The position numbers and the translations under genes were made by a program. This document shows positions 1 through 11,641 of a stretch of 11,641 bases of DNA, piece after piece (the first letter of the stretch is position 1; each line of letters begins with the position of its first letter). Source of the stretch: Ignavibacteria bacterium (lineage in GTDB: Bacteria; Bacteroidota; Ignavibacteria; Ignavibacteriales; Ignavibacteriaceae); assembly GCA_030648225.1 (NCBI GenBank), contig JAUSIA010000505.1, positions 1 through 11,641 on the forward strand, written 5' to 3'. The notes under the pieces were generated by a model. The model worked only from the letters and a program-made list of their open reading frames with translations, was not told the DNA's origin and did no database searches.

Positions 1-1
1 A

Positions 2-157
2 TGCGATAAAAAAGAACAACACCAAATCGTAGAAGAAATAGAATCCCGCTTTTCAGTTGCAGACAAACTCGAGCAGACAATAGATGAAAACCTGAAGAAG
101 GCAGAGACTTTAAGACAATCAATATTAAAAAAAGCTTTCGAAGGAAAATTAGTATGA
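2..157 (+). CDS. hsdS: Type I restriction specificity subunit HsdS, C-terminal end (partial)
   Basis: The frame is open from the window edge to a TGA and gives 51 residues. It ends in AETLRQSILKKAFEGKLV, the C-terminal signature of HsdS proteins: the distal conserved helix followed by the (I/L)LK.AF.G.LV tail. HsdS recognises the bipartite DNA target and holds two HsdM and two HsdR subunits; the part seen here would be in the conserved helical region, not in a target recognition domain. The start and both recognition domains lie outside the window. The gene lies upstream of mntA-hepT and hsdM on the same strand, so it may belong to the same restriction locus, although hsdM-hsdS is the more usual order. 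Confident in the family; nothing can be said about specificity. Confidence 0.85.
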   Translation, partial: CDKKEQHQIVEEIESRFSVADKLEQTIDENLKKAETLRQSILKKAFEGKLV

Positions 158-195
158 AAAAAAATTTTACCCGTCGTAGTCAAAGACGAAGGTGG

Positions 196-282
196 GCAGA
201 AACACTCAGGCAATCAATTCTTAAAAAAGTTTACCTGCCGGAATTCGAAGAATGCAGGCAGGCATTTGAGGGGAGATTGGTT
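196..282 (+). pseudogene. Broken second copy of an hsdS 3' end
   Basis: Translated in the frame starting at 196, this stretch reads AETLRQSILKK, then 11 extra residues, then AFEGRLV. Apart from the insertion, 17 of 18 residues match the intact hsdS tail at 101-154, but the DNA has diverged at many third positions, so it is an old paralogue or the remnant of a second hsdS and not a recent duplication. It lacks the stop codon at the expected place and runs on into the palindromic element at 294-430. An ATG at 154 would open a 74-residue frame through it, but that frame has no recognisable N-terminus and I do not regard it as a real protein. Confidence 0.65.
229..261 (+). repeat. 33-nt in-frame palindromic insertion in the hsdS remnant
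   Basis: Comparing the two hsdS tails shows exactly 33 extra bases here, placed between the LKK and AFEG codons without changing frame. The insert carries an inverted repeat: CCTGCC at 234-239 pairs with GGCAGG at 257-262, and an inner ATTC/GAAT pairs around a GAA loop, about 11 of 13 possible pairs. It encodes VYLPEFEECRQ. Structure and in-frame placement resemble the protein-coding palindromic elements described in Rickettsia; kinship with those is not implied. Confidence 0.7.
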
Positions 283-293
283 CGAAATTTAAT

Positions 294-430
294 GAATAGC
301 CCCGACTTTCAAGTCGGGGAAAAGAAAAATCCACCCAACAAATGGGCTTCAGCCCAAAACAAAAAGATATTTGGCTAAAGCCGGAGATATTTTTTATTTG
401 TAATCCACGCCCTAAAGGGCGTGGCTATTC
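294..430. repeat. Composite REP-like palindromic element with outer inverted repeats
   Basis: The outer ends are GAATAGCC (294-301) and GGCTATTC (423-430). Inside are four near-perfect hairpins: CCCCGACTT-TC-AAGTCGGGG (300-319), TGGGCT-TC-AGCCCA (343-356), GGCT-AA-AGCC (373-382) and CCACGCCCT-AA-AGGGCGTGG (405-424). The two left hairpins have TC at the centre and the two right ones AA. Such nested palindromes are typical of REP/BIME-like non-autonomous elements that RAYT-type (Y1) transposases mobilise, but no transposase is present in this window. The element lies between the hsdS remnant and mntA and could also act as a bidirectional transcription stop. Confidence 0.75.
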
Positions 431-475
431 AAATAGAATTAAAGTATTTTTATTTAACAAATAACCCATTCATAT

Positions 476-766
476 ATGAAAAACTTAAATGAAATAAAAA
501 AGCTTCTGGAACATCATAAGCAAAGTCTTAAAGACAAATACCATATTAAAAATATAGGATTATTCGGTTCTATTGTCAGAGGAGATACAACTGTTGAGAG
601 TGATGTTGATATTCTGGTTGAATTTGAAAAGCCGATCGGGTTAGACTTCGTTAGTCTTGCTGAGGAGCTTGAAGAAATTTTAGGAGTTAAGGTTGATCTT
701 GTAACTCCGAATGCTATTAAACCAAGAATGATGAAATACGTTAAGCAAGATCTGATTTATGTCTAA
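476..766 (+). CDS. mntA: MntA-type nucleotidyltransferase antitoxin
   Basis: This 96-residue protein is a minimal nucleotidyltransferase (MNT) domain. Residues 31-45 give the GS-x10-DxD signature (GS at 31-32, D43 and D45), and D74 in VKVDLV is the likely third metal-binding acidic residue. In characterised MntA-HepT systems the enzyme adds AMP units to the toxin's active-site tyrosine and so silences it. The stop overlaps the start of the next gene by 8 nt, the usual layout for this pair, which supports translational coupling. The length is normal for the family and all key residues are present, so it should be active. No good Shine-Dalgarno sequence precedes the ATG. The pair sits between hsdS and hsdM sequences, a common setting for this toxin-antitoxin type. 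Confidence 0.9.
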   Translation: MKNLNEIKKLLEHHKQSLKDKYHIKNIGLFGSIVRGDTTVESDVDILVEFEKPIGLDFVSLAEELEEILGVKVDLVTPNAIKPRMMKYVKQDLIYV

Positions 767-1103
767 GAGAGATTGGAAAATTCTGTTTGAAGATATTATA
801 GAAAGTATCAATAAAATTGAAGAATATTCTAAAGATTTAACGTTTGAAGGTTTTGCGCAAAGCCCTCTTATTATTGATGCAGTTGTAAGGAATATTGAAA
901 TAATCGGGGAAGCTTCTAAAAACATACCTCAGGAAATACAAAGTAAATTCAAAGACATTCCCTGGCAGAAAATAAAAGGAATCCGGAACAGGATTGTCCA
1001 TGAATATTTTGCTGTAGATATTTCAATCATCTGGCATATATCGAAAAACGAAATCGAACCTCTTAAAAATGTTCTTACCAAACATCTTAATGAAGACAAA
1101 TAA
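759..1103 (+). CDS. hepT: HepT-type HEPN ribonuclease toxin (DUF86)
   Basis: A 114-residue, all-helical HEPN-fold protein of the DUF86/HepT family. The catalytic RX4HXY motif is RNRIVHEY at residues 76-83 (R76, H81, Y83). In studied members R and H form the RNase active site of a dimer, and the tyrosine is the residue AMPylated by MntA. The conserved central stretch IIGEASKNIP is also typical. The gene overlaps mntA by 8 nt, and its ATG lies within the last codons of mntA. It is likely the toxin of the pair and may act in phage defence or stabilise the adjacent restriction locus; the second role is inference from position. Confidence 0.9.
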   Translation: MSKRDWKILFEDIIESINKIEEYSKDLTFEGFAQSPLIIDAVVRNIEIIGEASKNIPQEIQSKFKDIPWQKIKGIRNRIVHEYFAVDISIIWHISKNEIEPLKNVLTKHLNEDK

Positions 1104-1118
1104 ATTTTTAATTGATCA

Positions 1119-2600
1119 ATGACAACATCCTCAATCGTATCAAAAGTCTGGAATTACTGTAACATCCTCCGTGATGATGGTGTAAGCTATGGAGATTATC
1201 TTGAGCAGCTTACTTATCTGCTTTTCCTTAAAATGGCTTATGAGTATTCCAAACCCCCACATAACAGGCAAACTATCATTGAAAAGAAATATGACTGGGA
1301 ATCACTCCGCAGCATAAACGGCGGGACAGCACTGGAAGCTCATTACATTGAAATACTCAATGAGCTTGGCAAGAAAAAAGGAATGCTTGGAGAAATATTC
1401 TTCAAAACACAAAATCGCATCTCGGATCCAGCAAAACTTTATAAGCTTGTCCAGCTTATTGATGAGGAGAATTGGGTTTCACTCGAAACAGATGTAAAGG
1501 GAGATATTTACGAAGGTCTTTTAGAAAAAAATGCCGAGGATACTAAAAGCGGAGCGGGACAATATTTTACTCCACGTGCTTTAATAAAAGCAATGGTAGA
1601 ATGCATTCAGCCGGAACCATTAAAAACCATTGCAGATCCAGCCTGCGGAACCGGCGGTTTCTTTTTATCAGCTTATCAGTTTATAAGCAAACCATCCGCC
1701 TCAGGCGGACTTGATAAATCGGAAAAAGAATTTCTAAAGTTTAAAACTTTTAAAGGATGGGAGATAGTCCCAAGCGCAGCACGACTTTGTTTAATGAATC
1801 TCTATCTTCACGGTATCGGCGATATAGATAACATACCAACTATATTCAGGGAAGACAGCTTGCTGCGAAAACCAAAAGAGAATTTTGATTATGTTTTAAC
1901 AAATCCTCCCTTTGGTAAGAAGAGCAGCTTTACAATTACAAATGCCGCTGGTACACAAAAGAAAGATACACTTACCTATGAGCGTCAGGATTTCTGGGTA
2001 ACAACGTCAAACAAGCAATTAAACTTTGTTCAGCATGTTGTATCAATGTTAAAGCCTGATGGCAAGGCTGCAGTTGTTGTTCCGGATAATGTTTTATTTG
2101 AAGGAGGTGCAGGAGAAACAGTAAGAAAAAATCTTTTACAAAAAACAGATCTGCATACAATCCTGAGATTACCAACCGGGCTCTTTTATGCACAAGGTGT
2201 AAAAGCAAATGTAATCTTCTTTGATAACAAACCTGCAAGCAAAAATGCCTGGACTAAGGAAGTTTGGATTTATGATTTCAGAACCAACCAGCACTTTACA
2301 TTAAAGACACAGCAATTAAAGTACGAACATCTCCAGGATTTCATTAAATGCTACAACCCCAAGAACAGATTCAAAAGAAAAGAATCTGACTCCGGCGGAG
2401 AGTGCTTCAAAAAATTCACCTATGAAGAAATAACGGCAAGAGACAAAACCAATCTTGATATCTTCTGGCTTAAAGATGAATCTCTTGGAGATATGGATAA
2501 CCTTCCCGATCCTGATTTATTAGCACAGGAAATTGTTGAGAATGTTGAAGCAGGGTTAGAGAGTTTCAGAGAGATAGTGAATAATTTGAATGGGAAGTAG
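1119..2600 (+). CDS. hsdM: Type I restriction-modification DNA methyltransferase, HsdM subunit
   Basis: A 493-residue N6-adenine methyltransferase. The N-terminal helical domain (about 1-140) begins with VWNYCNILRDDGVSYGDYLE, typical of HsdM. GQYFTPR (147-153) leads into the SAM-binding motif I DPACGTGGF (173-181), and the catalytic motif IV is NPPF (262-265). The C-terminal part contains the conserved ITARDKTNLDIFWLKDESL. Length and motifs are those of an active enzyme. It starts 15 nt after hepT and has no strong ribosome binding site, so it is probably in the same transcript. Two short palindromes occur inside the reading frame and appear to add or replace a few residues (PSASGG at 192-197; the SDSGGE region near 425). 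No hsdS or hsdR follows it, so it depends on subunits outside the window or is an orphan. Confidence 0.93.
   Translation: MTTSSIVSKVWNYCNILRDDGVSYGDYLEQLTYLLFLKMAYEYSKPPHNRQTIIEKKYDWESLRSINGGTALEAHYIEILNELGKKKGMLGEIFFKTQNRISDPAKLYKLVQLIDEENWVSLETDVKGDIYEGLLEKNAEDTKSGAGQYFTPRALIKAMVECIQPEPLKTIADPACGTGGFFLSAYQFISKPSASGGLDKSEKEFLKFKTFKGWEIVPSAARLCLMNLYLHGIGDIDNIPTIFREDSLLRKPKENFDYVLTNPPFGKKSSFTITNAAGTQKKDTLTYERQDFWVTTSNKQLNFVQHVVSMLKPDGKAAVVVPDNVLFEGGAGETVRKNLLQKTDLHTILRLPTGLFYAQGVKANVIFFDNKPASKNAWTKEVWIYDFRTNQHFTLKTQQLKYEHLQDFIKCYNPKNRFKRKESDSGGECFKKFTYEEITARDKTNLDIFWLKDESLGDMDNLPDPDLLAQEIVENVEAGLESFREIVNNLNGK
1695..1709. repeat. 15-bp perfect palindrome inside hsdM
   Basis: TCCGCCT-C-AGGCGGA is a GC-rich perfect inverted repeat in an AT-rich gene. 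It encodes most of PSASGG, located between the FLSAYQFIS helix and LDKSEKEF, where HsdM proteins as I know them have a short turn. It looks like a small palindromic element inserted in frame in a surface loop. Confidence 0.6.
2390..2400. repeat. 11-bp palindrome inside hsdM
   Basis: CTCCG-G-CGGAG is a second GC-rich inverted repeat in the reading frame. It falls in a variable region where many HsdM proteins carry a longer stretch ending in GRWRKF; here the protein reads ESDSGGECFKKF. It could be a decayed copy of the same type of element as at 1695, but it is short enough to be chance. Confidence 0.35.
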
Positions 2601-2615
2601 TAAAAAAGAAGATAA

Positions 2616-2848
2616 ATGTCGATGGGTAACAGCTACACATACACCTGTTCATCCTGCGGTTATTCCGTTGTAACATCAGGAAAAGAGATGCAGGATTAAT
2701 TGTTGTTGTAAAACCTTATGTATGTCCTGCCTGTAAAATAATTACAGATGCGGTGGTTACTAAAAGTTGTAAAGATGGCTTTAAGGATGTTATAATTTAC
2801 ATCTCACAACAATTATTAAAAACAACTTTTATTAATCCTGTTGGGTGA
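2616..2848 (+). pseudogene. Small zinc-ribbon protein gene with a one-base frameshift
   Basis: The first frame (ATG at 2616 or the second ATG at 2622) reads MGNSYTYTCSSCGYSVVTSG and then stops at 2697-2699. The second frame continues as DAGLIVVVKPYVCPACKIIT and runs to the TGA at 2846-2848. Adding one A to the A-run at 2681-2684 joins the halves as ...SGKRDAGLIVV..., giving a protein of about 76-78 residues with two CxxC pairs (CSSC and CPAC) that would bind one zinc. I know similar small zinc-ribbon hypothetical proteins, but no function. It follows hsdM by 15 nt on the same strand. Either the gene is broken or the assembly dropped a base in the homopolymer. Confidence 0.65.
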
Positions 2849-2893
2849 TTGATATAAGTGGCCCGCCCTCCATTTCGCTTTGAGAGGCAATAA
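2849..2893. terminator. Possible convergent terminator hairpin
   Basis: This short gap lies between a + strand and a - strand gene that converge. An imperfect inverted repeat, GCCCTC at 2865-2870 against GAGAGGC at 2882-2888, could form a hairpin, but no clear T-run follows on either strand. Weak evidence. Confidence 0.25.
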
Positions 2894-3151
2894 TTATTCT
2901 TCGTTAATCTCTGAATCTTCTTTGTGCGGAAGGAAATGGCTTCTTATATCCTTAAGTAAAGCAGTCTGTGCCTCTGAGTTTATTAGCATATTTGCAAAAA
3001 AGAAAAATATTGCACCTATTACAATTCCTTGCACAATAAGACTTGCGCCGATTGCATAATCAAGGTTTTCAGTTGCTTTCCTCAAAAAAATTAATCCCTC
3101 TATTATACCGGTAACAGAAAATACGGTACCAATAACTTTTAAAAAATCCAA
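2894..3151 (-). CDS. Small two-helix membrane protein, function unknown
   Basis: An 85-residue protein with two predicted membrane helices (about residues 3-23 and 34-56) and a charged, acidic C-terminal tail (HKEDSEINEE). I do not recognise the family. The only usable start is a TTG at 3149-3151; an AAAGGA sequence 11 nt upstream is a fair ribosome binding site. The stop codon of the 29-codon peptide upstream (3158-3247) is in the same frame and only two codons away, so the two may be translated in succession or may once have been linked. Real-gene status rests on hydrophobic pattern and position. Confidence 0.6.
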   Translation of the reverse strand: MDFLKVIGTVFSVTGIIEGLIFLRKATENLDYAIGASLIVQGIVIGAIFFFFANMLINSEAQTALLKDIRSHFLPHKEDSEINEE

Positions 3152-3157
3152 CGTTAA

Positions 3158-3247
3158 TTATATCCTTTCTGTGATCAAAAAGATATTTTTACCAACTTCG
3201 TGTTCGCCAGTTGGTTGAGGATCTTTATTTACGTAGTAATTGGCCAT
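3158..3247 (-). pseudogene. Truncated MANYYV-type small protein
   Basis: A 29-residue frame begins MANYYVNKDPQPTGEHEV and then ends in unrelated GKNIFLITERI. The start matches from memory a family of about 60-70 residues that begins MANYYVNKNAQ..GDHEVHK and carries cysteines in its C-terminal half; that half is absent. The ATG has a good ribosome binding site (GGAG 8 nt upstream), so the fragment may still be translated. It is most likely a remnant truncated by deletion after GEHEV. The family's function is not known to me. Confidence 0.55.
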
Positions 3248-3439
3248 AACTAACTCTCCATTATTTTTTATTCAGATGAACTTTAATTATCAGGCATCCC
3301 CCAGGTACCTGAGTGAAAAGCTCATCTTAAATTTTACCCACACCTTCGGTTCATATCTTACATTGTTATAACAACCAGAAAACTTTAATAAGTTTCTAAA
3401 ATCGAACATTATCATAGGGTTGATCATATAAATGTTTAA

Positions 3440-3748
3440 CTAAAATTCCTGCACATCTTTAAGTACATCTGTTACTTCTTTATTATCATCAGTTATTATG
3501 TAAGCACCATTCTCTCTTTTTAAAAATACTTCTCTCCCTTTTTGCCAGTCACCCTTAGTGTCTTTGAAGATAGTTATAAATGCTTTTCCTACAGACATTG
3601 CAGCAATAACTTCTTCTCTTGTCCAGGTTACTCCTCCACTAACTTTAATCCCCTCATCTGAATGTACCTTGAAGTGAGTAATTTGAAAACGATTCGAAAG
3701 TTCTTCATATCTTACTGCCGATATCAGAAAATCAGCCCACTTTTGCAT
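3440..3748 (-). CDS. DUF3892-like protein (second of a tandem pair)
   Basis: A 102-residue soluble protein beginning MQKWADFLISAVRY, with VTWTREEVIAAMSVGKAFITIF in the middle and a K(E/D)VTDVLKDVQEF end. This order (ADYLISAVRY, W(S/T)REEV, G(K)xFxT, closing N..L..LPEF-like segment) is that of DUF3892, a family of unknown function. I chose the ATG at 3746-3748 because GGTG lies 6 nt upstream. An earlier ATG at 3758-3760, overlapping the previous stop by one base (TAATG), would add four residues. Either way it is directly coupled to the related gene upstream and probably shares its promoter with the two palindromic operators. No signal peptide or membrane segment. Confidence 0.75.
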   Translation of the reverse strand: MQKWADFLISAVRYEELSNRFQITHFKVHSDEGIKVSGGVTWTREEVIAAMSVGKAFITIFKDTKGDWQKGREVFLKRENGAYIITDDNKEVTDVLKDVQEF

Positions 3749-3759
3749 ATCATTCACCA

Positions 3760-4020
3760 TTAAAAATATGGTAAATCATCAAGATTATTCTTCTTTGTTT
3801 TATCAGGATCGGTCCTTAAACATTTACCTGTTCTCCCATCAATAACTTCAATTTCTACTCTTTCGCGACCAATGACTACATAGTAAGAATATATTTTATT
3901 CTCAATATCATAGATTGCATCTTCCTTAAATCTCGGTGACCAAAGTTCCCCATCATTACAAAGAGCCAAGATATCTCCTTCAGAACTTTTTTTACTTTGT
4001 TTTACTCTTCTTTCTGCCAT
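3760..4020 (-). CDS. DUF3892-like protein (first of a tandem pair)
   Basis: An 86-residue soluble protein. It reads ALCNDGELWSPRFKEDAIYDIE in the first half and ends LRTDPDKTKKNNLDDLPYF. Both segments are hallmarks I associate with DUF3892-type proteins (CNDGE.WSPR.K..AI.DIE; K.LRT.PD.T..NNLD.LP). The family has no established function. AAGGAGA 9-10 nt before the ATG is a strong ribosome binding site. Two copies of the TTAGTAC-NN-GTACTAA palindrome and a promoter-like TACAATTC box lie upstream, tying this pair to the neighbouring two-component system. The two genes belong to different branches of the family, so they are not a recent duplication. Confidence 0.78.
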   Translation of the reverse strand: MAERRVKQSKKSSEGDILALCNDGELWSPRFKEDAIYDIENKIYSYYVVIGRERVEIEVIDGRTGKCLRTDPDKTKKNNLDDLPYF

Positions 4021-4056
4021 TTATTTTAATCTCCTTGTTTATCTTAAATTTCAGTT

Positions 4057-4064
4057 GAATTGTA
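4057..4064 (-). promoter_or_regulatory. Candidate -10/-7 promoter box for the DUF3892 pair
   Basis: TACAATTC on the - strand, 22 nt from the proximal edge of the palindrome at 4087-4102. The same 22-nt spacing separates the palindrome and box at 5206-5213, so position and not just sequence supports the call. Confidence 0.4.
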
Positions 4065-4086
4065 AAAAATAGTATCAAGAATGTCA

Positions 4087-4102
4087 TTAGTACTTGTACT
4101 AA
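4087..4102 (-). promoter_or_regulatory. Palindromic operator, copy 1
   Basis: TTAGTAC-TT-GTACTAA, perfect over 16 bp. It lies 67 nt upstream of the first DUF3892 start codon. The asymmetric ATGA extension is on its left side, so it is inverted relative to copy 2. Confidence 0.7.
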
Positions 4103-4117
4103 AAATTCTCAAAAACT

Positions 4118-4133
4118 TTAGTACTTGTACTAA
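4118..4133 (-). promoter_or_regulatory. Palindromic operator, copy 2
   Basis: A second perfect TTAGTAC-TT-GTACTAA, 31 bp (about three helical turns) from copy 1, so both would face the same side of the DNA. It is followed by TGA like copies 3 and 4. Confidence 0.7.
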
Positions 4134-4152
4134 TGATTTTTATGTAATGAGG

Positions 4153-4440
4153 TTATGATTTGAGTTTTAGTAATAAAGGTGGGTTATTTTCTTTAAAGAC
4201 TGTGAAGAAGATTGCGATGAGTATTTCAAATGCTAAGGTAATATAGGCGAAGAGAATTCCTGAGTGAGTACCACTTAAGTAAACACTTAATTTTATCAAA
4301 ATTGTTATCTCATAAAAAACCAAAACTAAATAAAATATATTTAGTTCAGATTTCTGATGTAAATCTAATACTACTATTTGAACTAACCTTGCGAGAATTA
4401 AGATATGAATAGCTATAGTTAAGTAAAATAGTTCGGACAA
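4153..4440 (-). CDS. Multi-TM membrane protein, 3' part of a frame-split gene
   Basis: This 95-residue frame has about three membrane helices (residues ~3-25, 38-55, 62-82) and a short basic tail. It has no proper start: it opens at a TTG that is itself part of a T9 run shared with the upstream frame. One extra T in that run would join it to the 5' part as ...FISSLFFLSELFYLTIAIHIL..., a continuous hydrophobic helix, to make a protein of about 189 residues with six or seven membrane segments. It is therefore best read as the second half of that gene. I do not recognise the family. Confidence 0.6.
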   Translation of the reverse strand: MSELFYLTIAIHILILARLVQIVVLDLHQKSELNIFYLVLVFYEITILIKLSVYLSGTHSGILFAYITLAFEILIAIFFTVFKENNPPLLLKLKS

Positions 4441-4721
4441 AAAAAAAGGGAAGAAATAAATAAAACTCCGACAAGAAGATCTGTATGCGACAGTTTTAAT
4501 TTTGGCTGATCTCTGAAATTCAATGAGTAAAAAAGTAAAAGAGCTGCTATGCTGTGTATTAAACCTGGTTTGATTTGCAATAAAAAAACACTAAACAAAT
4601 TTATAGGATCTGATATACCCAACACAAGAAAAAAATAGAACATCCTGGTTTTATATTGTCTGAATATTGGGAATATCCAGACAATAATTGAAATATACAT
4701 TATTATAGTAGCTAGTTTCAT
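4419..4721 (-). CDS. Multi-TM membrane protein, 5' part of a frame-split gene
   Basis: A 100-residue frame with four hydrophobic segments (about 3-20, 27-49, 54-68, 82-94), ending abruptly in CPNYFT just after the T9 run (4439-4447). Its ATG directly follows the TAG of the secreted-protein gene (TAGATG), so translation is coupled. The following frame at 4153-4440 continues the membrane topology if a single T is added. Possibilities are an assembly error, a disrupted gene, slippage-based phase variation, or programmed frameshifting on the U9 slippery run. No enzymatic motif is visible. Confidence 0.62.
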   Translation of the reverse strand: MKLATIIMYISIIVWIFPIFRQYKTRMFYFFLVLGISDPINLFSVFLLQIKPGLIHSIAALLLFYSLNFRDQPKLKLSHTDLLVGVLFISSLFFCPNYFT

Positions 4722-5153
4722 CTAATTACAGACTGGGGGACAAAGAGTTCCAACCTCCATAGTTAATTGACCATAAGAAATTGATAAAACATCTTTTCTC
4801 TGCTCAATACTTACTAACACTCCACTCCCATTTGATAATAATTCATTTATAATAGAGACACTAAATACAGTAAATACATCTTGTGAGTTGACTTGCATAC
4901 CAGCCGGGTAAAGAACATTTCTTCTCTCATCAAGTATAACAACCTGGTTATCCTGAATCCTGAACATTAAATGATTGCTCGTCTGATTCGTAAAACTAAG
5001 AAGAGTATTTACCGGTAAATCAATAGATTTCAGAACCGGTCCAAACTTCTGATTTGCTGCCTCTCTGGTAAAAAGCGTTCCTTGTGCGGAAGCTGATGAG
5101 TACCAGATTAAGACGAATATTAGCAAAAGAAATATTTTAATATATCTTACCAT
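4722..5153 (-). CDS. Secreted protein with C-terminal CPPVC motif, function unknown
   Basis: A 143-residue protein with a clear N-terminal signal peptide, MVRYIKIFLLLIFVLIWYSSASA, likely cut before QG, so it is exported. The mature part is about 120 residues, beta-rich by appearance, and ends TLCPPVCN, with two cysteines in a CxxxC spacing that could form a disulphide or bind a ligand. I chose the ATG at 5151-5153 because AGGG lies 7 nt upstream and it places the signal sequence at the N-terminus; a GTG at 5198 would add 15 residues before it. It is coupled to the membrane protein downstream, and a single palindromic operator stands upstream. I do not recognise the family; a role as a secreted partner or ligand of the membrane protein is speculation from the operon. 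Confidence 0.65.
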   Translation of the reverse strand: MVRYIKIFLLLIFVLIWYSSASAQGTLFTREAANQKFGPVLKSIDLPVNTLLSFTNQTSNHLMFRIQDNQVVILDERRNVLYPAGMQVNSQDVFTVFSVSIINELLSNGSGVLVSIEQRKDVLSISYGQLTMEVGTLCPPVCN

Positions 5154-5183
5154 CTCAAAACCCTTTATGATGTTTTTAATGAT

Positions 5184-5200
5184 ATGTGGATACTCCACAT
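5184..5200 (-). other. Hairpin in the leader of the secreted-protein operon
   Basis: ATGTGGA-TAC-TCCACAT is a 7-bp perfect stem with a three-base loop. It lies just downstream of the promoter-like box and about 30 nt before the chosen start, so it would be near the 5' end of the mRNA and may affect stability. Not followed by a T-run, so not a terminator. Confidence 0.4.
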
Positions 5201-5205
5201 TTACC

Positions 5206-5213
5206 CAAATATA
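5206..5213 (-). promoter_or_regulatory. Candidate -7 promoter box (TATATTTG)
   Basis: TATATTTG on the - strand fits the Bacteroidota TAnnTTTG element exactly. It lies 22 nt from the palindrome at 5236-5251. No -33 TTG is visible; the palindrome occupies that zone, a position typical of an activator that replaces the upstream promoter element. Confidence 0.5.
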
Positions 5214-5235
5214 TATAAAGATTTTTATTTTACGT

Positions 5236-5251
5236 TTAGTACTTGTACTAA
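5236..5251 (-). promoter_or_regulatory. Palindromic operator, copy 3
   Basis: Perfect TTAGTAC-TT-GTACTAA in the gap between the response regulator stop and the secreted-protein gene, 83 nt before the latter's start. Single copy at this promoter, centred about 40 bp upstream of the presumed transcription start. Confidence 0.7.
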
Positions 5252-5273
5252 TGAATTTTATAACTAATTGTCT

Positions 5274-5957
5274 CTAAATCTGTTTTTCTCTTTTTATATT
5301 AAAATAATTGATGCCGAACTTGATTAACTCTGCTTGAGTATTGAACTCTAATTTTCTTAATAATGTTGACCTATAATAGTCAATACTTTTTTTACTCAAA
5401 TTCAGATTATCAGCTATTTCTTTGCTCTTCATACCCTCGACAATTAAATTCAAAACCTGCTCTTCCCTAAAGTTGAGTTTAGTTTCATCGAATTTACTAT
5501 TTCCCTTATGGTTGGCTTCATAATCATTCAAAAGTTGATTAAGACTTCCCTCAGTCCATTTACCACCAAAATATTTCTCTCCTCTGTATACCTTCTCTAT
5601 AGCATAATATAGTTCCTCATCCATTATATTTTTATTTACAAGACCACATCCACCTGTCTTGAGGACTTTATAAACATATTCTTCACCATCATCCATAGAC
5701 ATGAAGATTGATTTAGCATAAGGATCTTTTTCAAGAATTCTTTCAACCGCTTCAATTCCTGAAACCTCAGGCATTGAAATATCTACTAATATTATATCTG
5801 GCATTAGATTAAAATACCTGGCAATCAATTCTGAACCATTCTTAGCTTCCCCAATAACAATCACTTTTTTATTATCTTTTAATAATCTGATAACCCCTTG
5901 CCTAAATAAAGTATGGTCATCAGCTACTAATATTCTTATACTCTGGTTTTGTTTCAT
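5274..5957 (-). CDS. NarL/FixJ-family response regulator
   Basis: A 227-residue DNA-binding response regulator. The receiver domain (about 7-125) has the acidic pair D13-D14, the phospho-acceptor D59 in LVDISMP, S87 and K109, so all phosphorylation residues are in place. A LuxR-type helix-turn-helix follows at about 160-215 (LNFREEQVLNLIVEGMKSKEIADNLNLSKKSIDYYRSTLLRKL). Such proteins dimerise on phosphorylation and bind short inverted repeats. The start overlaps the end of the kinase gene by 38 nt, so the two are co-translated partners. The palindromes upstream of three nearby operons, including its own, have the 7-2-7 geometry used by NarL-type regulators and are its likely targets (inference). 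Confidence 0.95.
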   Translation of the reverse strand: MKQNQSIRILVADDHTLFRQGVIRLLKDNKKVIVIGEAKNGSELIARYFNLMPDIILVDISMPEVSGIEAVERILEKDPYAKSIFMSMDDGEEYVYKVLKTGGCGLVNKNIMDEELYYAIEKVYRGEKYFGGKWTEGSLNQLLNDYEANHKGNSKFDETKLNFREEQVLNLIVEGMKSKEIADNLNLSKKSIDYYRSTLLRKLEFNTQAELIKFGINYFNIKREKQI

Positions 5958-7161
5958 CTTTTTTATTCTTAATAGGGTATGTAGCTATTATATTTGTTCC
6001 TTGATTTAATGAAGAATCAATCTGGAAATTACCGTTCAGCCTCTCTACGCTTTCCTGCATATTCATTATACCCAAACCATCAGATACATATTTATCATTG
6101 AGCAGCTTCCTCGATTTGAACCCGATTCCATCATCAGAGATAAAAATTGTAGCTGTTTCTGGTTCTTCTAATAAACTAACTGTAAATTCTTTTGCTTTTG
6201 AATACCGGATTATGTTGTTAAGTGACTCCTGAACAATCCTATAAATGCATACTTGTAAATCTTTGGATAGTCCGTTTGTATTCTCAGGAAGATGAAGCAG
6301 ATATTTCAAACCGGTTTCTTTTGAAACATTACGGCACATCGATTTGATTAGTATAACAAGACCAAGTTCATCGAGATTGGGTGGTTTAAGATTATGCGCC
6401 ACTTCTCTTACTTTTGTAATCGTAGAATTCAGTATCTCTATTGTCCGCTGATATTCACTTTCATCAATACCAAGTGGAATAAATTTCTTATAGTTACTTA
6501 TATTTAGTTTTACTAAAAGTAGATTCTGACCAACCGAATCATGCAGTTCTTGTGATATTCTTGCACGCTCTTCTTCCTGTGTTTTCTGAAGAGATGCAGA
6601 AGTATTTTTCAACAGCTGCTGATAATTGCTCATCTGCTCATCATATTCCATTTTCAGTGTAGTATCCCAAAAATATAGTTGGGCCATCTCCAAGAATGAT
6701 ATACCATGAAAGTTTATTTCATAAAATCTATCTCTGACTTTCTTTGAAATAATAAATTGCTTACCAGATTGTATCGCATCTTTAATGTCAAAATCAATAC
6801 TATCTAGAATTGAATCAATCTTGCTTTTGTTAATCATTATTTCATTGAAAATTCTTTGGGCAGTTTTATTAAGATTTACTATTCTTCCTTCAGTATCAAT
6901 TCTGATGATAGGATTTGGGTCAAGTTCAGAAAACAGAGCAAGAAGTTTTGCCGTGTTGGTCTCAAATTGTTCCTGCTCCTTTTTGTGTTTTTTTAGGAGA
7001 GGATTGTATATATGCTTATAAGAGATATATATCAAAATCAGAATGATCAGGAATACAACAAGTGAGATATAGATAGGGTTATAAATACTCTGAACTAAAT
7101 CAATATATTCAGAAAGCTCATCTTTGCTTTGCAATAATATAACCAAAAAACTTACGGTCAT
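5920..7161 (-). CDS. Membrane-anchored PAS sensor histidine kinase (HisKA_3 type)
   Basis: A 413-residue kinase. One membrane helix at about 28-48 is followed by a cytoplasmic PAS-like domain (about 72-170; NPIIRIDTEGRIVNLNKTAQRIF), a short coiled segment, and the HisKA_3 dimerisation helix with phospho-accepting H207 in ARISQELHDSVGQ. The ATPase domain has an N-box (QESLNNIIRYSKA, 311-323), G1 (SDDGIGF, 342-348) and G2 (DGLGIMNM, 361-368). There is no extracytoplasmic sensor domain, only about 25 residues before the helix, so the signal is probably sensed by the PAS domain, in the membrane, or through a partner such as the multi-TM protein nearby (speculation). It transfers phosphate to the overlapping NarL-type regulator. 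Three palindromic sites lie upstream, consistent with autoregulation. The ATG at 7161 lacks a strong ribosome binding site. Confidence 0.94.
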   Translation of the reverse strand: MTVSFLVILLQSKDELSEYIDLVQSIYNPIYISLVVFLIILILIYISYKHIYNPLLKKHKKEQEQFETNTAKLLALFSELDPNPIIRIDTEGRIVNLNKTAQRIFNEIMINKSKIDSILDSIDFDIKDAIQSGKQFIISKKVRDRFYEINFHGISFLEMAQLYFWDTTLKMEYDEQMSNYQQLLKNTSASLQKTQEEERARISQELHDSVGQNLLLVKLNISNYKKFIPLGIDESEYQRTIEILNSTITKVREVAHNLKPPNLDELGLVILIKSMCRNVSKETGLKYLLHLPENTNGLSKDLQVCIYRIVQESLNNIIRYSKAKEFTVSLLEEPETATIFISDDGIGFKSRKLLNDKYVSDGLGIMNMQESVERLNGNFQIDSSLNQGTNIIATYPIKNKKDETKPEYKNISS

Positions 7162-7188
7162 TTTTTAAAATATATTTCCTATTGTAAA

Positions 7189-7196
7189 TCAATTTA
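7189..7196 (-). promoter_or_regulatory. Candidate promoter box of the kinase-regulator operon
   Basis: TAAATTGA (within TATAAATTGA) on the - strand, 21 nt from the proximal palindrome at 7218-7233. It matches TAnnTTTG only partly; the call rests on having nearly the same spacing as at the two other operator-bearing promoters. Confidence 0.3.
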
Positions 7197-7217
7197 TAGA
7201 TAAATTCTAATTTTTGT

Positions 7218-7233
7218 TTAGTACTTGTACTAA
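7218..7233 (-). promoter_or_regulatory. Palindromic operator, copy 4
   Basis: Perfect TTAGTAC-TT-GTACTAA, 57 nt upstream of the kinase ATG, followed by TGA as in copies 2 and 3. Confidence 0.7.
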
Positions 7234-7250
7234 TGAAATGATTAAAATCG

Positions 7251-7266
7251 TTAGTACATGTAATAA
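7251..7266 (-). promoter_or_regulatory. Palindromic operator, copy 5 (one mismatch)
   Basis: TTAGTAC-AT-GTAATAA, one base off the right arm, 33 bp from copy 4 and in the same orientation. Confidence 0.55.
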
Positions 7267-7281
7267 TGTTTATTGAAATTT

Positions 7282-7297
7282 TTAGTATAAGTACTAA
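7282..7297 (-). promoter_or_regulatory. Palindromic operator, copy 6 (one mismatch)
   Basis: TTAGTAT-AA-GTACTAA, one base off the left arm, 31 bp from copy 5. Together copies 4-6 make a phased array of three sites upstream of the kinase. Confidence 0.55.
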
Positions 7298-7398
7298 TGT
7301 TGCTTTTAATAGTAACATCACCAATGTCGAGAACTTTACTCATTACTTTAAAGAAATGTCACTTGGTGTATTGCTGCTGATTATTAAACAGATTCTGG

Positions 7399-7680
7399 TT
7401 GCTACAGGATTTCTCCTGCAAGCTCACAATCAAAACTCGTAAAAGAAAAGTGATAGTTTGTGAAAGCAAACACATAGTTAGCAAAAGAAAACATATAGTT
7501 AATGAAAGAAAACCTATAGTTAGTGAGAGAAAACATATAATTAGCTCCAGAAAAGATATAGTTAGTGAAAGCAAACCTATAGTTAGTGAGAGAAATCATA
7601 TAGTTGGCGAAAGTAAACCTATAGTTAGCGGGAGAAATTATAGGATGAGCTTAAGAAAGTATAGAACGGGCTTAAACTAA
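7399..7680 (+). CDS. Possible heptapeptide-repeat protein encoded by the minisatellite
   Basis: A 93-residue frame is open through the whole 21-bp repeat array and reads as heptapeptides of the form (E)(R/S)(K)(H/P)IVS, very rich in lysine and arginine (residues ~15-90). Differences between repeat units are often silent in this frame (GAA/GAG, AGC/AGT, CAC/CAT), while the same changes alter residues on the opposite strand, which favours this frame if any is translated. Against it: the only start is a TTG at 7399 with no ribosome binding site, and a 21-bp repeat keeps all frames open by default. Function unknown; treat as doubtful. Confidence 0.25.
   Translation: MLQDFSCKLTIKTRKRKVIVCESKHIVSKRKHIVNERKPIVSERKHIISSRKDIVSESKPIVSERNHIVGESKPIVSGRNYRMSLRKYRTGLN
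7441..7671. repeat. 21-bp minisatellite, eleven degenerate units
   Basis: Eleven contiguous 21-bp units, with a core like GAAAGAAAACCTATAGTTAGT. Units at 7462-7629 are close to the consensus; the last two (7630-7671) and the first (7441-7461) have drifted most. ATAGTTAG is the best kept part. There are no indels between units, so the array grew by unequal crossing over or slippage in whole units and then diverged by point mutation. Confidence 0.85.
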
Positions 7681-7961
7681 TTTTTTATTGCCTGTTGACT
7701 TTTTCCTTTTTTAAGCGGTTAGGCATTTTTTATCTCATTATTATTGGGGTCTAAGAGATCCAAAATATTCATTTCATCCAGCTTTGAATTATGTGCTAAT
7801 ACTTATGAAAGAGAAAGACTCGCATATACCTTGAGTACTCTGCGATTAAAACATTTGTTTTATATTCCTCATTTCGCTTCGCTACATTCTGAATGACTAA
7901 TCGGGTGAACCACTGTTTCCCTGATGGTCACCGCCGCACCGTGAAAAATGAAGGAACTAGT
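7681..7961. other. Intergenic stretch with repeat debris, downstream of pyrC
   Basis: No gene is supported here on either strand. At 7868-7895 the - strand reads GTCATTCAGAATGTAGCGAAGCG and continues AAATGAGG, which resembles the dispersed GTCATTCTGA..GAAGCGAAG repeat seen in many bacterial genomes. At 7904-7932 a stem with one bulge (GGTGAACCA against TGGTCACC) could be a weak terminator or part of the same debris for the pyrC transcript; it has no T-run. Confidence 0.4.
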
Positions 7962-9254
7962 TTATAAATCGCTAAACTCCCCTTTGAAATATATCTGCTT
8001 ATTATTTATAACTCCCACTGCCCTGCCGGTTAAAAGTCTTTTATTAAAAGGTGAGTTTACGGACCTGCTTTTAAATTTAGAAATATCCACTGTCCATACT
8101 TCATCAGGATCTAGAATTGTAAGATTAGCTTGTTCCCCAATCTCAAATTTTGGAACAGGAAGATTTAAAATCTTTCGTGGATTTATTGAAAGCTTTTCAA
8201 TTATCTGATTCAGAGTTAAGACTTTATTATGATAGAGTTCTGTAAAAGTTAATCCAACTTCGGTTTCTAATCCGATAATTCCATTAGGTGCATAATCAAA
8301 CTCCATCTCTTTTTCTTCTATTGAATGAGGAGCGTGATCGCTTGCTATACAATCAATTGTTCCATCCTTTAATCCTTTTAATATTTCTTCAACGTCTGCT
8401 CTTGTTCTTAACGGCGGACTCATTTTTGTATTTGTATCATAAGTTTTAACTGCATCATCAGTCAAAGTAAAATGATGAGGAGTAACTTCTGCAGTAACGT
8501 TTAATCCTTTTTTCTTTGCTTCCCTTACCATCTCAACAGATTTTTTTGTGCTGATGTGAGCGATATGAATTTTTCCGCCGGTATATTCAGCCATTAAAAT
8601 ATCCCTGCTTACAATAATATCTTCAGCAACAGATGGAATTGGTGGTAAACCTAATGTTGTGGAGTTCAATCCCTCATTCATTGAACCGCCTGCAAGAGTT
8701 TCATCTTCACAATGCTCGATAACTGTTGTATTAAACATTTTAGAATACTCAAGTGCCCTGCGAAGAATTGCAGATGTTTTTATTGCAACACCATCATCAG
8801 AAAAACCAACAGCACCGTTTTCATAAAGTTCCGCCATAGGGGAAATAACTTCTCCTTTTCTGCCGACTGTTGCAGCAGCAATCGGATAAACATCAACTAA
8901 GTGGCTTGCAGCTTTTCTTTTTATAAATGTAACTACTTCAGCAGAATCAATTGCAGGTTCAGTATTAGGCATACAGGCAATTCCTGTAAATCCGCCATTT
9001 GCCGCACTATTGCATCCTGAAATAATAGTTTCTTCATCTTCTCTTCCAGGTTCTCTAAGATGAACATGCATATCGAAGAAACCGGGAACAATAAATTTTC
9101 CACTCAGATCAAATTCCTGTGCATCATTTAAATCTTCTTTGGAGAGATTTCCAATTTTAGAAATAACTCCATCAATTAATAATATATCAGTTTTATCTTT
9201 ATCAATTTTTTGTTCAGGATGAAGTAAGTGAATATTGTTTAAGATGATTTTCAT
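7962..9254 (-). CDS. pyrC: Dihydroorotase
   Basis: A 430-residue amidohydrolase that closes carbamoyl aspartate to dihydroorotate, step three of de novo UMP synthesis, in the cytoplasm. The zinc site is complete: H63 and H65 in DMHVHLREPG, D153 in GFSDDG, H181 in IEHCED, H233 in HIAHIST and the catalytic D306 in IASDHAPH. The length of about 430 and the HVHLREPG motif place it in the class I (PyrC/CAD-like) dihydroorotases, not the shorter E. coli type. It begins 9 nt after pyrB ends and is the last gene of the operon, so it is controlled from the pyrR leader. Confidence 0.96.
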   Translation of the reverse strand: MKIILNNIHLLHPEQKIDKDKTDILLIDGVISKIGNLSKEDLNDAQEFDLSGKFIVPGFFDMHVHLREPGREDEETIISGCNSAANGGFTGIACMPNTEPAIDSAEVVTFIKRKAASHLVDVYPIAAATVGRKGEVISPMAELYENGAVGFSDDGVAIKTSAILRRALEYSKMFNTTVIEHCEDETLAGGSMNEGLNSTTLGLPPIPSVAEDIIVSRDILMAEYTGGKIHIAHISTKKSVEMVREAKKKGLNVTAEVTPHHFTLTDDAVKTYDTNTKMSPPLRTRADVEEILKGLKDGTIDCIASDHAPHSIEEKEMEFDYAPNGIIGLETEVGLTFTELYHNKVLTLNQIIEKLSINPRKILNLPVPKFEIGEQANLTILDPDEVWTVDISKFKSRSVNSPFNKRLLTGRAVGVINNKQIYFKGEFSDL

Positions 9255-9263
9255 TTTAAACTC

Positions 9264-10187
9264 TTAATTCATTGTACCGAGTAAATATAAAACTGCCATT
9301 CTAACAGCAACACCATTTGTTACCTGTCTTAAGATTATTTGCTTAAGTCCATCTGCAACTCCCGAAGAAAGTTCAACTCCCCTATTTATAGGACCCGGAT
9401 GAAGAATCAAAATATCTTCCTTACCAACTTTCTCAAGACGTTCTTCAGTAATTCCAAAGAAAGTAGAGTATTCCCTGATTGAAGGAAAATATTCGCGTGC
9501 TTTTCTTTCTAATTGAATCCTAAGAACATTAAGCACATCATTTTCCCGGATTGCTTCATCTATATCATAAATAACTTTTACACCAAGTTGTTCTATATTT
9601 TTAGGAATCATTGTAGAAGGACCGCAAACCGACACTTCGGCTCCAACAGACTTAAGACCAAATATGTTTGATAAAGCAACCCTGCTATGTGCAATGTCTC
9701 CGACAATACAAACTTTAACTCCTTCAAGCCTTCCAAGTTTTTCTTTTATAGAATACATATCAAGTAAAGCTTGTGTCGGATGTTCGTGAGCACCATCGCC
9801 TGCATTGATTATGTTTGAGTCGCAAACTTTAGTAAGAAAGAGGGGTGTTCCCGCAGCAGAATGCCGAACCACCACCATATCAACTTTCATTGCTTCAATA
9901 TTTCTTATAGTATCTTTAAGTGTTTCACCTTTACTAACACTGCTTGTAGAAACTGAAAAGTTTACTGAATCTGCTGATAATCTTTTTTCTGCCAGCTCAA
10001 ATGAAATTCTTGTACGTGTGGAATTTTCATAGAAAAGATTTACAACAGTTTTCCCTTGCAGAGTTGGAACTTTTTTTATCGGTCTTTCAAGAACTTCTCT
10101 GAATGTCTTTGCAGTATCAAGTATAAGGTTTATATCTTCTTTAGGAACTCCCTGGAGTCCCAGCAAATGTCTGCTTGAAAGCGGCAT
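9264..10187 (-). CDS. pyrB: Aspartate carbamoyltransferase catalytic subunit
   Basis: A 307-residue ATCase that joins carbamoyl phosphate and aspartate, step two of pyrimidine synthesis. The carbamoyl-phosphate loop STRTR is at residues 56-60; HEHPTQALLD follows in the middle and HPGPINRGVEL marks the aspartate-binding part near the C-terminus. All are intact and the length is normal. AGGG lies about 8 nt before the ATG. No regulatory chain gene (pyrI) is nearby, as expected for an operon controlled by PyrR. The 16-nt gap to pyrR and 9-nt gap to pyrC show co-transcription. Confidence 0.96.
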   Translation of the reverse strand: MPLSSRHLLGLQGVPKEDINLILDTAKTFREVLERPIKKVPTLQGKTVVNLFYENSTRTRISFELAEKRLSADSVNFSVSTSSVSKGETLKDTIRNIEAMKVDMVVVRHSAAGTPLFLTKVCDSNIINAGDGAHEHPTQALLDMYSIKEKLGRLEGVKVCIVGDIAHSRVALSNIFGLKSVGAEVSVCGPSTMIPKNIEQLGVKVIYDIDEAIRENDVLNVLRIQLERKAREYFPSIREYSTFFGITEERLEKVGKEDILILHPGPINRGVELSSGVADGLKQIILRQVTNGVAVRMAVLYLLGTMN

Positions 10188-10203
10188 CTAATTTTCCCTG
10201 AAA

Positions 10204-10749
10204 TTATTTTTCTTCAACATCAACTAAATAGACAGAATCTTCTCCATCTTTTTCTTTCATTTTAACTTTTATTTCTTCATCAATAGATGTAGGAATATTT
10301 TTACCAACATAATCAGCTTTAATTGGTAATTCTCGGTGTCCCCTGTCTATCAATACAACTAACTGAATTGTGTTTGGTCTTCCCATATCCATAATTGCAT
10401 CGAGTGCTGAACGAACTGTTCGCCCGGTATATAAAACATCATCAACAAGAATTATATCTTTTTCATTAAGATCGAAAGTAATATCTGAAACTGAAACCTG
10501 GGGCTGTTTTAGTCTCATCCTAAAGTCATCCCTGTAAAGAGTTACATCAAGTATCCCAAAAGGGATTTCAATATTTTCAATCTCTTTAATCTTGGTAAAT
10601 ATTCTTTTTGCAAGAAATTCCCCTCTTGTTTTCATACCAAGAAGAACAAGTGTTTTTGAGCCTTTGTTTTTTTCAAGAATCTCGTGAGAAATTCTTGTAA
10701 TTATTCTCTCAAAATTCTGTTCGTCTATTATTTTTGCTTTAACTGCCAT
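10204..10749 (-). CDS. pyrR: PyrR, pyrimidine operon attenuator and uracil phosphoribosyltransferase
   Basis: A 181-residue type I phosphoribosyltransferase-fold protein with the PRPP loop [19 protein letters not shown] at about 100-118 and the R(D/G)[18 protein letters not shown] segment that is characteristic of PyrR. With UMP bound, PyrR attaches to a specific loop in pyr leader RNA and promotes termination; many members also make UMP from uracil. It is the first gene of the operon and is preceded by just such a loop and a terminator, so it should regulate its own transcript together with pyrB and pyrC. The ribosome binding site (AAGGGGGA) lies in the 3' arm of the terminator hairpin. Confidence 0.96.
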
Positions 10750-10784
10750 ATAAAAAAAATCCCCCTTAAATAATTTTAAGGAGG
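10750..10784 (-). terminator. Intrinsic terminator/attenuator in the pyrR leader
   Basis: On the - strand a 10-bp stem (10775-10784 with 10761-10770, one G-U pair, loop ATTA) is followed by an A and eight T. This is a classic intrinsic terminator. The AAGGGGG of its 3' arm is also the only Shine-Dalgarno sequence of pyrR, and the T-run is the spacer to the ATG. So the folded hairpin would both stop transcription and hide the ribosome binding site. Confidence 0.8.
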
Positions 10785-10821
10785 TCTCTGTATTTTCTAA
10801 TAAATTTTATTCTCATTTTTT

Positions 10822-10852
10822 CCTTCCCCATCTCTCAGGACAGGATTAAAGG
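10822..10852 (-). promoter_or_regulatory. PyrR-binding loop in the pyr leader RNA
   Basis: The - strand RNA has a short lower stem (CCUU with AAGG), a UAA bulge on the 5' side, an upper stem of six to seven pairs (UCCUGUC with GAUGGGG, including G-U pairs) and the loop CUGAGA. GUCCUGAGAGAUG closely follows the known PyrR target consensus around UCCNGNGAG(G). The AAGGA at its 3' edge can alternatively pair with UCCUU in the 5' arm of the terminator, which gives the usual switch: PyrR-UMP holds the loop closed and lets the terminator form; without it the pairing would act as antiterminator. The switch is inferred from complementarity. Confidence 0.75.
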
Positions 10853-10975
10853 TATTAAAAATTTCTTTTCAAAATTTATAAACAATTTCCTTTAATAACA
10901 AAGATTTACTCTTTTATGAATTAAAATGAGACTAAAAAAATTTATTTTCTAATTGTGTTGTAAATCAAAAGTTAA

Positions 10976-10983
10976 TAATTTCG
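10976..10983 (+). promoter_or_regulatory. Weak promoter candidate for the protease gene
   Basis: TAATTTCG is one base from TAnnTTTG, and a TTG lies 20 nt upstream at 10953-10955. This fits the Bacteroidota promoter layout loosely, in the divergent gap before the protease gene. Confidence 0.25.
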
Positions 10984-11031
10984 GGGGAATTTTTTGTTCA
11001 TTTTTCAATTATTAAATCCTCGGGAGCTATG

Positions 11032-11641
11032 ATGAAAAAAGTCCTTTCTATTTTTTCTTTTCTAATTTTTCTTTCCTCTTTTGCTTTTGGTCAGGTTGAA
11101 ATATCAACAAGATTATCAGAAGCCTTGCAAAATGCTGAATCAACTGATTATATAAGAACACTTGTTTATCTAAGGGATCAGGTTGATATATTATCACTTG
11201 ATCAAAGACTTTATGAAGAAAAAGCTACACTTCAAAGAAGAGCATTCGAAGTAATAACTGCTCTTCAGGAGAAAGCAAATAATACTCAGGGTAATCTTGC
11301 TTCATATTTTCAATCCAAAGTAATTGAAGGAAAAGTTTTTAATTATCAATCCTACTGGATTGCAAATATGTTTATGGTAGAAGCGCAGCCAGAAGTAATT
11401 CAAGAACTTTTTACCAGGATGGATGTGGGACAAATGGATCTTGATGCAATCCTGGAATTAGATAGACCAATTATTGAAGAAAAAAATACAGAAGGAATTG
11501 AGTCCTCTGAACCCGGATTAAGAATTATTAATGCACATCTTTTATGGCAATTGGGTATAACAGGTGCTGGAAGAATAGTGATGAATATGGATACAGGAGT
11601 ACTATTATCTCATCCTGCGTTACAATTTAAATGGAGAGGTA
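11032..11641 (+). CDS. Secreted subtilisin-family (S8) serine protease, N-terminal part
   Basis: The frame is open from the ATG to the window end, 203 residues. A signal peptide (MKKVLSIFSFLIFLSSFAFG, cut near GQ) is followed by a prodomain-like region of about 130 residues, and then by GLRIINAHLLWQLGITGAGRIVMNMDTGVLLSHPAL. This is the start of an S8 protease domain: a conserved W.LGITG.G and the catalytic aspartate in MDTGV (VIDTGV in most members). The histidine and serine of the triad would lie beyond the window. Of two adjacent ATGs I chose the second (11032) because GGGAG stands 5 nt before it, too close to the first. Divergent from pyrR with no functional link. Confidence 0.85.
   Translation, partial: MKKVLSIFSFLIFLSSFAFGQVEISTRLSEALQNAESTDYIRTLVYLRDQVDILSLDQRLYEEKATLQRRAFEVITALQEKANNTQGNLASYFQSKVIEGKVFNYQSYWIANMFMVEAQPEVIQELFTRMDVGQMDLDAILELDRPIIEEKNTEGIESSEPGLRIINAHLLWQLGITGAGRIVMNMDTGVLLSHPALQFKWRG

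Follow-up and report, generated by a model that had tools for sequence, protein, structure and literature searches.

The contig JAUSIA010000505.1 of Ignavibacteria bacterium (assembly GCA_030648225.1), analysed here over positions 1 to 11,641 as the window, carries on the - strand the genes for a histidine kinase and a NarL/FixJ-type response regulator, followed by genes for an exported protein, a seven-helix membrane protein and two DUF3892-related proteins, together with six copies of the palindrome TTAGTAC-N2-GTACTAA (Table 1). The source assembly comprises 2.51 Mb in 510 contigs and is 69% complete, with about one third of the genome lying outside it. For comparison, we used the genomes of 146 relatives (numbered with G below), 80 of them in the same family; the source organism and the relatives with the cassette belong to the order Ignavibacteriales. 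Palindrome scans were scored by mismatch count, with the reversed pattern as a control, and the chance expectation in the window was derived from 200 dinucleotide shuffles.

Genes and palindromes of the cassette

The kinase matches HisKA_3 (42.5 bits, cut-off 24) and HATPase_c (45.3 bits, cut-off 26.4), which places it among the HisKA_3 kinases; it also has a weak PAS match, while its external domain, judged by eye, is almost nil. Matches of the regulator to the receiver domain (Response_reg, 76.2 bits, cut-off 30.2) and to GerE (52.2 bits, cut-off 23.5) assign it to the NarL/FixJ family. The kinase residue H207 is invariant in 9/9 orthologues, and so are the phosphorylation residues D13, D14, D59, S87 and K109 of the regulator, which we take to be the acidic pair, the phospho-acceptor Asp, the Ser/Thr and the Lys of a receiver, respectively.

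Table 1. Positions of the cassette genes, palindromes (putative operators) and promoter-like boxes in the window.
Feature	Position	Strand	Remarks
Histidine kinase, HisKA_3 + HATPase_c	5920..7161	-	Pfam domain matches
NarL/FixJ-type response regulator	5274..5957	-	overlaps kinase gene by 38 bases
Exported protein, 143 aa, C-terminal CPPxC	4722..5153	-	signal sequence judged by eye
Seven-helix membrane protein gene	4153..4721	-	frames 4419-4721 and 4153-4440; structure model
DUF3892 protein, 86 aa	3760..4020	-	34.9 bits, above cut-off 22.3
DUF3892-like protein, 106 aa	3440..3760	-	18.2 bits, short of the cut-off (22.3); six relatives keep it
Putative operator copy 3 upstream of kinase gene	7282..7297	no strand	one mismatch
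Putative operator copy 2 upstream of kinase gene	7251..7266	no strand	one mismatch
Putative operator copy 1 upstream of kinase gene	7218..7233	no strand	perfect
Putative operator upstream of exported-protein gene	5236..5251	no strand	perfect; position shared with G045, G051, G015, G072, G064
Putative distal operator upstream of DUF3892 genes	4118..4133	no strand	perfect
Putative proximal operator upstream of DUF3892 genes	4087..4102	no strand	perfect; kept in G045, G027, G061, G072, G064
TAAATT promoter-like box, kinase operon	7191..7196	-	21 nt past operator, one nt off the usual 22
TATATTTG promoter-like box, exported-protein gene	5206..5213	-	22 nt past operator
TACAAT promoter-like box, DUF3892 genes	4059..4064	-	22 nt past operator

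Six palindromes, four perfect and two with one mismatch, had been proposed in a first-pass annotation of this DNA, and a pattern scan recovered exactly these, with the same division into perfect and imperfect copies. No further copy exists in the window at up to 3 mismatches (shuffles gave a mean of 0.55 and a maximum of 4), adjacent copies are 31, 33 and 31 bp apart, and comparison with open reading frame (ORF) positions places every copy upstream of - strand genes, all as originally described. The inverted heptamers with two bases between them have the geometry of NarL-type sites, which had likewise been pointed out.

Throughout the assembly, seven sites were found at up to one mismatch and none with the reversed control. 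At up to two mismatches the control outnumbers the palindrome (20 sites against 12), and conclusions can therefore be drawn from near-perfect copies only. Of the seven sites, the one outside the window, C379:6103, was rejected as an independent locus: it is located in a 101-bp contig-end stretch (L013 6025-6125) that is 100% identical to window 5229-5329, and is thus a duplicate of the site at 5236, representing an assembly fork or a strain variant and no new locus. This contig-end copy adjoins a helicase-like gene.

Identity of four copies over 16 bp, and the one extra copy that is a contig duplicate, might suggest a dispersed repeat or an assembly product devoid of regulatory role. Against this, the flanks differ among copies, orthologous promoters keep copies across genera and the distance from copy to promoter box is constant, as described below; we consider this explanation hardly credible.

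Conservation and co-occurrence with the regulator

In an orthologue profile search over the 80 family genomes, the regulator was detected in nine (387-416 bits; the next score is 289). The perfect palindrome is present in 9/9 of these genomes, versus 3 of the 71 others (hypergeometric P = 9.5e-10, a value overstated because the genomes are related). The three exceptions have their site inside genes (G073 and G030) or at a promoter (G054). Altogether, the family contains 21 perfect copies: 14 in cassettes, the contig duplicate, the G054 promoter site, two inside genes, and three in G015 before genes of Sortilin/BNR type with a C-terminal sorting domain; one of these three sites falls inside an ORF that was probably called with too early a start. 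Inspection of this genome (L077-L079) disclosed six ORFs for Sortilin/BNR-type secreted proteins, with a TTAGTAC-type site at each start region and with very similar promoters. The regulon had been expected to be local, and this is true of eight of the nine genomes, but not of G015 with its extra secreted BNR-repeat promoters.

Alignment of orthologous loci shows that eight other family genomes keep the kinase-regulator cassette and have one or more perfect sites in it; their regulators are 51-60% identical to that of the window. Sites at up to one mismatch in the gap between the regulator and exported-protein genes, and sites in the gap between the membrane-protein and DUF3892 genes, occur in the window and in the relatives listed in Table 1. 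In addition, G067 has a form of the palindrome two bases shorter in the first gap and a site after the membrane-protein gene, at a contig end; in G015, the second gap contains a copy with two mismatches. Upstream of the kinase gene, the window has sites, as do G051, at 393 and 720 bases from the gene, and G015, where the copy lies between the kinase and a divergent gene, off the 22-nt spacing; the corresponding region of G072 falls off its contig. Seven loci were found through kinase alignment (48-59% identity), in records with titles such as Ignavibacterium sp., Ignavibacteriota, Ignavibacteriales, or ‘Bacteroidetes bacterium’/‘bacterium’.

Promoter spacing and recognition helices

Distances between palindrome and promoter-like box as first annotated are correct for all three window promoters (Table 1). 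The set used for spacing was made from 33 rows by removing five distal copies and a further two located within genes. Of the 26 promoter-proximal sites left, 22 are followed by a TAnnnT box at exactly 22 nt. After these sites were merged by eye into 17 groups, the box was found at 22 nt in 13/17, whereas the next-best offset accounts for 4/17 and the best of 5000 shuffles for 7. A spacing of 22 nt puts the palindrome centre 30 bp before the box. With this constant distance in 13 of the 17 groups, the palindromes occupy the position, immediately before a predicted promoter box, of class II activator sites. The box of the exported-protein gene, TATATTTG, fits TAnnTTTG, which we take to be the promoter form of Bacteroidota.

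Spacing also bears on whether the regulator would act in the opposite sense, binding its sites and keeping the cassette promoters repressed until it is released by a signal. Repression by NarL-type proteins exists, as described for NarL at frdA (PMC4549865). There, however, the NarL site lies near the start point, while the fixed spacing of 22 nt puts the palindrome upstream of the promoter box and not over it, and we regard repression as improbable.

The recognition helix reads KK[TS]ID[YF]YR[SA] in all nine regulators of the TTAGTAC type. The D[YF]YR motif was found in 0/21 other aligned regulators, eight of which read T[VI]D[TS]HR. In the wider family, the same cassette is associated with more distant regulators, and the sister cassettes of G054, G030, G021 and G002 carry a different palindrome, TACGTAY-N2-RTACGTA. 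Regulators of the first three have the T[VI]D[TS]HR helix type; that of G002 is unseen because the contig ends before any regulator. Over the 80 genomes, 12 of the 13 perfect copies of this second palindrome are located at sister cassettes, the exception being G030:C37. The copy in G021 lies 430 bases before the kinase gene, and proximal sites of exported-protein genes in sister cassettes are followed by TA 23 nt downstream (3/3). Other single palindromes, assessed each at its own locus alone, are TCCGTAG-N2-CTACGGA in G047 and ATAATAG-N2-CTATTAT in G044, and the other sister loci have merely weak palindromes, expected in AT-rich DNA.

The helix pattern as the sole predictor of sites was rejected, as 21 of the 146 genomes have the pattern and not all of them have sites. 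Cassette regulators account for nine of these genomes in the family and for four in a second family, f2 (G120, G117, G145 and G109); four more genomes have the pattern in other regulators, as detailed below, and for G131, G062, G010 and G104 it could not be placed in a regulator ORF among those inspected. In four genomes of genus g37 (family f2), the KKTIDYYR helix belongs to a kinase-regulator-seven-helix cassette with no exported-protein gene, and there is no TTAGTAC site at these cassettes; the helix of G088, also of f2, reads KKTVAYYR. TTAGTAC pairs 53-54 bp apart are instead located at other promoters of g37 (L172, L173, L193, L194, L197, L199 and L201), as if a second, distinct regulon used this half-site. 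The pairs are often flanked by AAAACATTAGTAC and precede varied genes, including one for another NarL-type regulator. According to manual reading, TAnnnT at 22 nt occurs, in one or more of the possible orientations, in 7/10 intergenic g37 loci, several of these loci being equivalent promoters in different genomes.

Helical phasing of the copies on the same face of DNA is suggestive only. We obtained R 0.91 at 10.5 bp over 14 copy-to-copy spacings (33, 31, 31, 31, 31, 31, 42, 104, 105, 53, 54, 53, 53 and 53 bp), which were hand-picked by eye, come in several cases from related promoters and in one case include a two-mismatch copy of G051. Spacings of 63 bp (G044) and 327 bp (G051), three further 53-bp pairs of g37, and 132 bp between two G054 pairs, which is out of phase, were left out.

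Predicted regulation and accessory proteins

The palindromes are very probably operators of the regulator encoded in the cassette, which would bind and activate. Originally, the two were tied by proximity; at the level of sequence, the tie is now supported by conservation of the sites, their co-occurrence with the regulator, their constant distance from the promoter box and the change of palindrome that accompanies a change of recognition helix. From these features we infer binding, activation rather than repression, and control by phosphorylation. The kinase would phosphorylate the regulator, and a dimer of the phosphorylated regulator would then occupy each 7-2-7 palindrome. With its centre about 30 bp upstream of the TAnnnT box, the bound dimer would cover part of the -35 region and interact with RNA polymerase in the manner of class II activation, turning on the operon of the exported and seven-helix proteins and the DUF3892 genes. 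In the window genome the regulator possibly activates its own kinase-regulator operon as well, and extra upstream copies may be auxiliary sites on the same face.

Several observations weigh against this proposal. The 22-nt rule is missed by the kinase promoter of the window, the kinase promoters of G051 and G015, and the DUF3892 promoter of G015. Before the exported-protein gene, there is no site in G027 and merely a four-mismatch stretch in G061, and the intergenic stretch upstream of the kinase gene has no site at up to two mismatches in G045, G027, G061, G067 and G064; sites of the kinase operon, proposed in the first-pass annotation, are thus present in the window but are not a general feature. 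One-mismatch copies occur in 64/146 genomes, many of which lack the regulator, and at this level the reversed control is about equally frequent. The helix pattern is found in other regulators of G099, G110, G111 and G143, genomes with no copy at up to one mismatch. Finally, G054 keeps a TTAGTAC promoter site though its cassette regulator bears the other helix; this site (L086 6974) has TAnnnT at 22 nt and precedes a 246-aa ORF with no Pfam match.

Such a promoter site where the cassette regulator does not match, along with the g37 pairs at other promoters, would be expected if the sites belonged to another transcription factor, encoded elsewhere, for which the cassette and the regulator in it were only a target. 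Perfect sites in all regulator-bearing family genomes versus few of the others, and a palindrome that changes where the helix of the cassette regulator changes, argue against such a factor, which we hold to be very unlikely.

Activation by the cassette's own regulator would resemble the E. coli NarX/NarQ-NarL system, in that the window regulator combines a receiver with GerE and the putative operators consist of two inverted heptamers with a 2-bp gap. For induction of E. coli ogt1052, one NarL 7-2-7 site is enough; its centre is at -44.5 and it lies 32 bp upstream of the -10 element (PMC9314961). In the cassette, the distance from centre to box is 30 bp. The half-site is different: TTAGTAC, with GTAC innermost, instead of the TACCCCT of NarL in an engineered site (PMC4549865). 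The window regulator scores 116 with the NarL model (cut-off 250), and the regulon is small and local, unlike that of NarL. VraSR/LiaFSR, which we take to be envelope-stress systems, are similar in having a membrane-protein gene in the same cluster, and VraR is the closest match of the regulator among Protein Data Bank (PDB) sequences; the kinase, however, reaches only 79 bits with the LiaS model (cut-off 450), and the seven-helix protein, compared with LiaF/VraT by library models only, has no Pfam or NCBIfam match. The best-scoring NCBIfam equivalogs for kinase and regulator are MctS and MctR, but with scores far under the cut-offs (155 vs 700 and 144 vs 300 bits).

In the pair of secreted and membrane proteins first annotated, the membrane-protein gene is split here by a frameshift at a T homopolymer (window 4419-4440), either an error or a real mutation; the ORF is intact, with 191-202 aa, in seven relatives. 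A longer ORF of the exported protein, starting with GTG at 5198, is probably over-called. Like the seven-helix protein, the exported protein has no match in Pfam or NCBIfam. At E up to 0.01, 129 relatives were found for the exported family and 164 for the seven-helix family; among the 120 matches listed for each, named organisms of both families are Ignavibacteria-group records, with the single exception of a Candidatus Eremiobacterota record in the seven-helix family. For DUF3892, the best match in a PDB sequence search has merely E 0.3.

Across the loci compared, 50 of 53 places, there are 49 exported-family ORFs, with the seven-helix gene downstream in 43/49, a matching regulator directly upstream in 22/49, a matching kinase downstream in 13/49, and a regulator or kinase so placed in 35/49. 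The kinases downstream of the exported and seven-helix genes are found in wider relatives and differ from that of the cassette. A second layout, in which the exported and seven-helix genes directly precede a histidine kinase gene, was observed at L136, L147, L149, L154, L158, L159, L166, L167, L169 and L170. Through this gene order, both families are associated with histidine kinases, and we tentatively guess from it that their members may assist the kinase in sensing or in feedback. Equally speculative is a four-part module in which the exported CPPxC and seven-helix proteins might form a ligand-sensing co-receptor for the kinase and its scant external domain, the regulator feeding back on this co-receptor through operators that co-diverged with its recognition helix within Ignavibacteriales. 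No description of a four-part sensory module of this kind was found, and no title among the literature matches listed describes the cassette.

Elsewhere in the window, a 21-bp tandem repeat of about 11 units (7442-7675) gives ORFs with a 7-residue repeat on each strand, of which the one at 7399-7680 (+) matches Pfam LbR_Ice_bind (32.7 bits, cut-off 30), possibly through periodicity alone. A PyrR binding-site RNA element (10752-10856; 54.4 bits, cut-off 54) precedes a gene with a Pribosyltransferase domain, followed by carbamoyltransferase and dihydroorotase-like genes. At 476-2600, a Nucleotidyltransferase/HepT-like pair is located directly before an HsdM-like N6-methylase gene.

The logic of regulator and operator is in itself of a known kind; what is new are accessory genes of unnamed families and a series of operators that match their regulators. 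A literature search found no paper pairing the name of the group with ‘promoter’ and ‘transcription start sites’, and the cassette provides a predicted regulator-operator pair with promoter geometry for this largely uncultured group. Two unnamed protein families, exported and seven-helix, are linked by it to two-component signalling. The sister palindromes, TTAGTAC and TACGTAY together with the candidates TCCGTAG and ATAATAG, would constitute a natural series on how NarL-type helices choose their half-sites.

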